A program made the translations under genes and the position numbers. Positions 15,778-15,906 of a stretch of 64,000 bases of DNA are shown here, piece by piece. The stretch is from a virus: positions 1 to 64,000 of the IMG/VR virus record IMGVR_UViG_3300011118_000005. One strand, written 5' to 3'. Numbering within the stretch: position 1 is the first letter of the stretch; every line of letters begins with the position of its first letter. The notes beneath the pieces are model-generated. The model made no database searches. It was not told where the DNA came from and saw only the letters and a program-made list of their open reading frames with translations.

Positions 15778-15906
15778 CGGTGGGGGCTGGAATCGAACCA
15801 GCGACCTCCAGTTCCGATAAATAACCCACAGCCACCGGCCTCCGCGAGAGGCAAGTTTTCGGTAGTGGATAAATACTGGCGCTCTCCCAATCTGAGCTAC
15901 TCCACC
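15778..15906 (-). ncRNA. tRNA-like Y RNA (YrlA-type) with permuted Ro-binding module
   Basis: 129 nt. The ends form a tRNA body: acceptor GGUGGAG with CCCCACC (one A-C mismatch), D-arm GCUC/GAGC, T-arm GCUGG-UUCGAUU-CCAGC and anticodon stem CCAGU/ACUGG. Instead of a 7-nt anticodon loop there are 62 nt (15813-15874) folding as a hairpin (GCCUC...GAGGC). Its strands contain ACUAC...ACUUGCC and GGCC...GGGUUAU, the two halves of the neighbouring Y RNAs in swapped order. Bacterial YrlA RNAs are, as I recall, tRNA mimics with circularly permuted Ro sites. The alternative is a tRNA(Arg, UCG) with a ~55-nt intron (loop AUUCGGA after removal). CCA is not encoded. Confidence 0.75.

Follow-up and report, generated by a model that had tools for sequence, protein, structure and literature searches.

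We propose that a 129-nt RNA encoded on the minus strand of a phage genome, here called tRNA-Y for tRNA-topology Y RNA, acts as Y RNA partner to the Rsr protein that the phage itself encodes, being a tRNA of normal topology that carries a Ro-binding hairpin as its anticodon loop and forms a circular permutant of YrlA. Working from sequence, we regard this reading as quite probable, as it is supported by a match to the tRNA model, a match of the hairpin to Y RNAs in permuted order, covariation among relatives, linkage to rsr, variants within phages, encoded CCA and a promoter. The window, by which we mean the whole 64,000-nt stretch of DNA analysed, covers the greater part of an IMG/VR phage record of 66.7 kb; coordinates are those of the window, and all features of the cluster lie on its minus strand.

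Genomic setting of the RNA cluster

In order of transcription the cluster reads promoter, Y RNA 1, Y RNA 2, tRNA-Y, Y RNA 3, an 80-aa ORF and rsr. The putative sigma-70 promoter (TTGACA-17 nt-TATAAT, 16063-16091) is recognised by consensus match, at 12 of 12 positions, and its -10 box ends some 10 nt before Y RNA 1 (15991-16053; RF01656, 26.2 bits, with Ro motifs). Y RNA 2 (15911-15981; 37.6 bits) and Y RNA 3 (15711-15779; 30.1 bits) are matched by the same model, and the tRNA part is absent from all three of these canonical Y RNAs. RF01656 carries the Rfam name 'nematode sRNA', and its recognition of phage Y RNAs, both in the window (15711-16053) and in a second phage locus (L009, 5655-5723), where it exceeds its cut-off, amounts to a likeness of Y RNAs across kingdoms, filed under nematodes; its scores on phage Y RNAs top out at 40.4 bits. 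The ORF between the RNA cluster and rsr (15453-15695) gave no family match.

The rsr gene (13839-15422), on the same strand as tRNA-Y and downstream of the RNA cluster, encodes a Ro60/Rsr protein of 527 aa with TROVE and Ro60 vWA domains (Pfam vWA_Ro60, 1.6e-62; TROVE, 2.2e-49), which matches Xenopus Ro60 (PDB 1yvp, 1.7e-130) and Deinococcus radiodurans Rsr (2nvo, 1.6e-118) along its length. The protein keeps the Lys, Arg and His that align with K170, R174 and H187 of Xenopus Ro60, residues which we take to be Y RNA contacts. About 4 kb from the cluster, also on the minus strand, lies a gene for an RNA ligase (19183-20322; phrog_968, Pfam RNA_ligase with a PHA02142 OB fold).

Anatomy of tRNA-Y

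The tRNA model RF00005 aligns by cmscan over its complete length (1-71) to 15906-15778 of the minus strand, with 45.6 bits, an E value of 2.5e-8 and a long insertion in the anticodon loop. The acceptor stem is formed by 15900-15906 and 15779-15785 (helix 1 in the family pair counts), which pair throughout the family and in the window copy contain a single mismatch, A6-C67; they are followed by the discriminator base at 15778, and a 3′ CCA is not encoded. The D arm (15881-15897; helix 2) and the T arm (15786-15802; helix 6) are placed by the tRNA model alignment and the family pair counts, and the anticodon stem pairs CCAGT (15875-15879) with ACTGG (15808-15812). In place of the anticodon loop stands, between these strands, a 62-nt insert (15813-15874), which in order contains the counterpart of the canonical Y RNA 3′ strand (CCAC...AACTTGCCTC, 15848-15868), the loop TCGCG (15843-15847), which closes the Ro stem at the site of the open ends of YrlA, and the counterpart of the canonical 5′ strand (GAGGCCG...GGGTTAT, 15820-15842; the 5′ arm as a whole runs GAGGCCG..GTGGGTTAT), whose near-invariant columns in the family alignment are C-G and TTA-C. 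Profiles built from the three neighbouring Y RNAs give the insert 25.5 bits when the arms are taken in permuted order, 3′ arm before 5′ arm, as against -13.7 bits in normal order, and none of 3,000 dinucleotide shuffles of the insert attains the permuted-order score (mean -6.9, sd 5.1, maximum 15.5). The Ro helix of the window copy contains mismatches. The sequence-only reading of this DNA had thus placed the tRNA body exactly, had recognised the hairpin with its strands swapped relative to those of the neighbours, and had been right that three of the four RNAs of the cluster lack a tRNA part (RF01656, 26-38 bits).

Owing to the insert, neither ARAGORN nor a filtered Rfam scan of the window at gathering level called tRNA-Y. 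When the 129-nt RNA is folded by itself, pair probabilities are at least 0.97 at five of the seven acceptor positions and 0.88-0.99 in the Ro hairpin; those of the D, T and anticodon stems are 0.43-0.64, and forcing the D and T arms costs only 0.3 kcal/mol. Folded as a single sequence with its flanks, the RNA is not significantly stable (z -1.3) and another fold is favoured, for which reason comparative evidence was used in its place; the convincing evidence for the predicted structure is comparative.

Relatives in phages and bacteria

Relatives were sought from both sides of the proposed partnership. With the Rsr protein alone as query, 11 loci were recovered from viral contigs, and in five of these (L004, L005, L006, L007 and L008) Rfam finds tRNAs of 119-135 nt near rsr, which carry the permuted hairpin. 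A search by RNA pattern alone gave 109 further stretches; a TROVE gene is present in 12 of the 14 viral records with a clear tRNA form found in this way, the remaining two being fragments of 25-33 kb, against a background of 346 TROVE-bearing records among 50,697 sequenced phage records. The tRNA form also lies beside rsr in assemblies of Myxococcota (G512, G452, G644 with three in tandem, G455 and others) and Planctomycetota (G032, G414), where a prophage origin is possible. A BLASTN search of the cluster against phages returned ordinary tRNA fragments only. Genome counts made with a covariance model (R1) were discarded: ordinary tRNAs reach about 66 bits in fetched loci and 69-73 bits in whole genomes, and scanning anchored on rsr was therefore used instead. 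Two divergent copies were seen, one a reduced variant with seemingly an acceptor, a T arm and the permuted Ro hairpin and no D arm (L080, 2051-2450, minus strand), the other a tRNA-topology copy without a clear GTTATC in its insert, perhaps decaying or diverged (L007, 3562-3680).

In a MAFFT alignment of 36 members the acceptor is paired in 99.2% of cells, with changes on both sides at all seven pairs, and the D arm, T arm and lower Ro helix are paired at 100%, 98% and 95%, figures that are inflated for the viral subset, as viral examples were chosen partly on pairing in these four helices. Independent weight consequently rests on the loci found through Rsr, which are free of this bias, and on the upper Ro helix, which was not used in selection; the latter is 74% paired, probably an underestimate since MAFFT shifts it by one column in some rows, and shows double changes at seven of its eight pairs. 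Sliding the partner columns by one to three positions lowers overall pairing from 88% to 38-49%. The insert thus forms a Ro stem with conserved motifs on both strands, as the permuted-order shuffles and the covariation indicate. Within a locus the canonical and the permuted copies have spellings in common, GGTACG and ACATTACC in L008 and GGACCC and TTTTGTCC in L006, which is expected if one Rsr binds both. A 3′ CCA is encoded in seven of the 36 members, where about 0.6 would be expected at 1 in 64, the members not all being independent.

Relation to YrlA and other RNAs

According to a review (PMC8394870), the two ends of YrlA pair with each other as a stem, to which is added a tRNA-like domain comprising D, T and acceptor arms, and by structural comparison YrlA (PDB 6CU1) is a circular permutation of tRNA (PMC11472068). 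In the actinophage loci its order is Ro 5′ strand, T arm, closed acceptor, D arm and Ro 3′ strand. Joining the ends of YrlA and cutting its acceptor loop yields the order of the window RNA, and the two are therefore circular permutants of one RNA; judged by this order of parts, tRNA-Y of the window corresponds to YrlA with its opening moved to the acceptor stem and with the Ro stem closed. Both have the Ro stem and the D, T and acceptor arms in identical circular order (RF02553, 6CU1), both lie beside rsr, and the motifs CCGA, GTTATC and CTTG are near-identical between them. They differ in that YrlA ends in the Ro stem and has its acceptor closed by a loop, whereas tRNA-Y ends in the acceptor, whose strands pair across the insert, and has its Ro stem closed by TCGCG, and in that some relatives of tRNA-Y encode CCA.

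The sequence-only reading had equated the arrangement in the window with that of YrlA, which cannot be upheld, as in YrlA it is the tRNA that is permuted, the Ro strands standing in their normal order (PMC8394870, PMC11472068, and the actinophage loci). Its idea of a permutation between topologies is supported as such, but not for the pair that it named: as the window RNA opens the YrlA circle on its other side, the permutation worth naming is that between the tRNA topology and YrlA, not that between the tRNA topology and plain Y RNA. The Infernal model of YrlA that it had put forward as a check (RF02553) gave no match in the window's record, which says little alone, since actinophage YrlA itself reaches only 33-37 bits with this model, whose cut-off is 69. 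In Gordonia phage GMA2 (L022) a Pistol ribozyme match (5479-5535, 56.8 bits) was seen among the tRNA genes near its YrlA. The literature covered on YrlA as a permuted RNA does not describe the tRNA-topology form; the key YrlA papers lie outside that literature, and there is a minor but real chance that the form is already noted in them.

Among other known RNAs, the canonical Y RNAs (the YrlB-like RNAs, metazoan Y RNAs and nematode sbRNAs of RF01656), represented by three copies in the cluster, have the Ro-binding motifs of tRNA-Y, but they are without a tRNA body and have their Ro strands at the ends of the molecule, in normal order. From tRNA (RF00005), with which it has in common the acceptor, D and T arms, variable region and discriminator in normal 5′-3′ order, tRNA-Y differs by the Ro hairpin and by the lack of an ARAGORN call and of a conserved U33 or anticodon. 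In its tRNA ends and its large insert replacing the anticodon arm it resembles tmRNA, but it has no tag reading frame and the insert is a Ro hairpin. The phage does encode a real tmRNA elsewhere in the window (3677-3996, minus strand; Rfam, 104.7 bits; tag AEANYALAA).

Alternative explanations

The complete cloverleaf and the RNA ligase of the phage could be taken to mean that the RNA is a decoding tRNA with a short intron, spliced to about 74 nt, in which the likeness to Y RNAs is incidental; the sequence-only reading had itself proposed a tRNA-Arg. That identity does not survive comparison, for U is found at position 33 in 12 of the 36 members and no anticodon is conserved. Where a decoding tRNA has a 7-nt loop with U33 and anticodon, tRNA-Y has the 62-nt insert, and of all helices the anticodon stem is the least conserved, with 66.9% pairing. 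Decoding is thus an unlikely role for tRNA-Y on its sequence. An incidental likeness also sits badly with the permuted-order match between the insert and the adjacent Y RNAs, which recurs and covaries in 36 relatives, and with the linkage of the tRNA form to rsr. A known tRNA intron would have spoken against the sequence-only reading, but Rfam scans matched no intron family, group I and group II included, and the insert is too short for a self-splicing intron. Taken together we find a spliced decoding tRNA scarcely credible.

The tRNA body might instead be a processing signal only, punctuating a Y RNA precursor for RNase P and the 3′ enzymes, with no effector role of its own. Punctuation of precursors by tRNAs is generally well known, and the interleaving of the copies with canonical Y RNAs at gaps of a few nucleotides, as well as the encoded CCA of some members, would fit such a role. 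For this purpose an ordinary tRNA would suffice and a conserved, covarying Ro hairpin would be superfluous, and YrlA retains the identical fused parts although its closed acceptor cannot be a processing end; we hold this explanation to be improbable. It is also conceivable that tRNA-Y serves as a precursor, whose ends are joined into a circle, by the phage RNA ligase for instance, and which is then cut open in the Ro loop, such that the working RNA has the shape of YrlA. The same circle of parts in both RNAs and the presence of a ligase in the same phage speak for this. Against it, several relatives encode CCA, which suggests a free 3′ end, and other phages carry genes of YrlA topology as such; we find circularisation very improbable.

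Proposed switching between the two topologies

Our reading of tRNA-Y as a permutant of YrlA raises the matter of how the two forms are related by descent. With each T arm assigned to the acceptor partner that gives the best pairing, 174 units in 122 loci were classified, 112 as YrlA topology and 62 as tRNA topology. A tree of 72 Rsr proteins requires, under parsimony, no fewer than 13 changes of topology, of which at least four are forced by branches with strong support. The AU test rejects one clade for the tRNA form (p = 0.0002), and the topologies are more clustered than in shuffles. Horizontal exchange of Rsr together with its RNAs could mimic switching. Both forms occur within the Rsr clade of the window itself (11 members, 99% support), and in a single phage record (L119, 3700-4400) some 750 bp accommodate a canonical Y RNA together with a YrlA and two RNAs of tRNA topology, the latter two with encoded CCA; this locus, checked by eye, is the sole example used, since loci labelled as having both topologies include ambiguities from tandem arrays (L021). 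In one planctomycete assembly with two TROVE genes (G032), the tRNA form lies beside the TROVE gene of contig C76 and weak matches to the YrlA model beside that of contig C31.

A possible route is visible where two tRNA-form genes stand in tandem, 5 nt apart (L008, 5609-5862). The junction between them reads T arm, acceptor strand, short loop, acceptor strand, D arm, which is the order of YrlA with five possible acceptor pairs, and a duplication of this kind could be the way in which YrlA arises. The occurrence of relatives across many phages and in some bacteria points to repeated evolutionary switching between the forms. To the fuller proposal, that tandem duplication and change of partner have repeatedly interconverted the tRNA topology and YrlA in phages and bacteria, and that the former matures like a tRNA, by RNase P and CCA addition, and serves as a ligand of Rsr, we give about even credence.

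Proposed function and implications

We consider the following model the most likely for tRNA-Y in the phage. One promoter would transcribe Y RNA 1, Y RNA 2, tRNA-Y, Y RNA 3 and possibly rsr, and the 129-nt RNA would be excised by the tRNA enzymes of the host, through RNase P at the 5′ end, trimming at the 3′ end and completion of CCA, an excision that would also free the neighbouring Y RNAs. Rsr would then hold the hairpin of tRNA-Y via its Y RNA site, leaving the tRNA body as the effector end, as in YrlA. In tRNA-Y that end may, for example, bring Rsr to PNPase or to a different enzyme that binds tRNA, or it may gate the Rsr ring. To our knowledge, tethering to PNPase is known for the Y RNA of D. 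radiodurans only. There the Y RNA tethers Rsr to PNPase (PMC8394870, PMC7790460), and it is by likeness to this system that a tRNA-like effector end of tRNA-Y is proposed. The phage could use the complex to adjust RNA decay, or to protect or mimic tRNA; a survey of jumbo phages has grouped TROVE proteins with RNA-repair functions (PMC7824862).

This model bears on the puzzle of why the tRNA mimic YrlA is circularly permuted, as a sister form of tRNA topology would link tRNA genes to Y RNAs. The wide distribution of the tRNA-topology form would mean that selection keeps the contacts of the RNA and not its ends, and an Rsr system running on two circular permutants would constitute a natural experiment. 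For phage and bacterial genomes, tRNA-Y would represent a class of RNA gene that ARAGORN and the Rfam YrlA model miss. Finally, if the proposed interconversion is true, these RNAs would provide a noncoding RNA with recurrent natural circular permutation.
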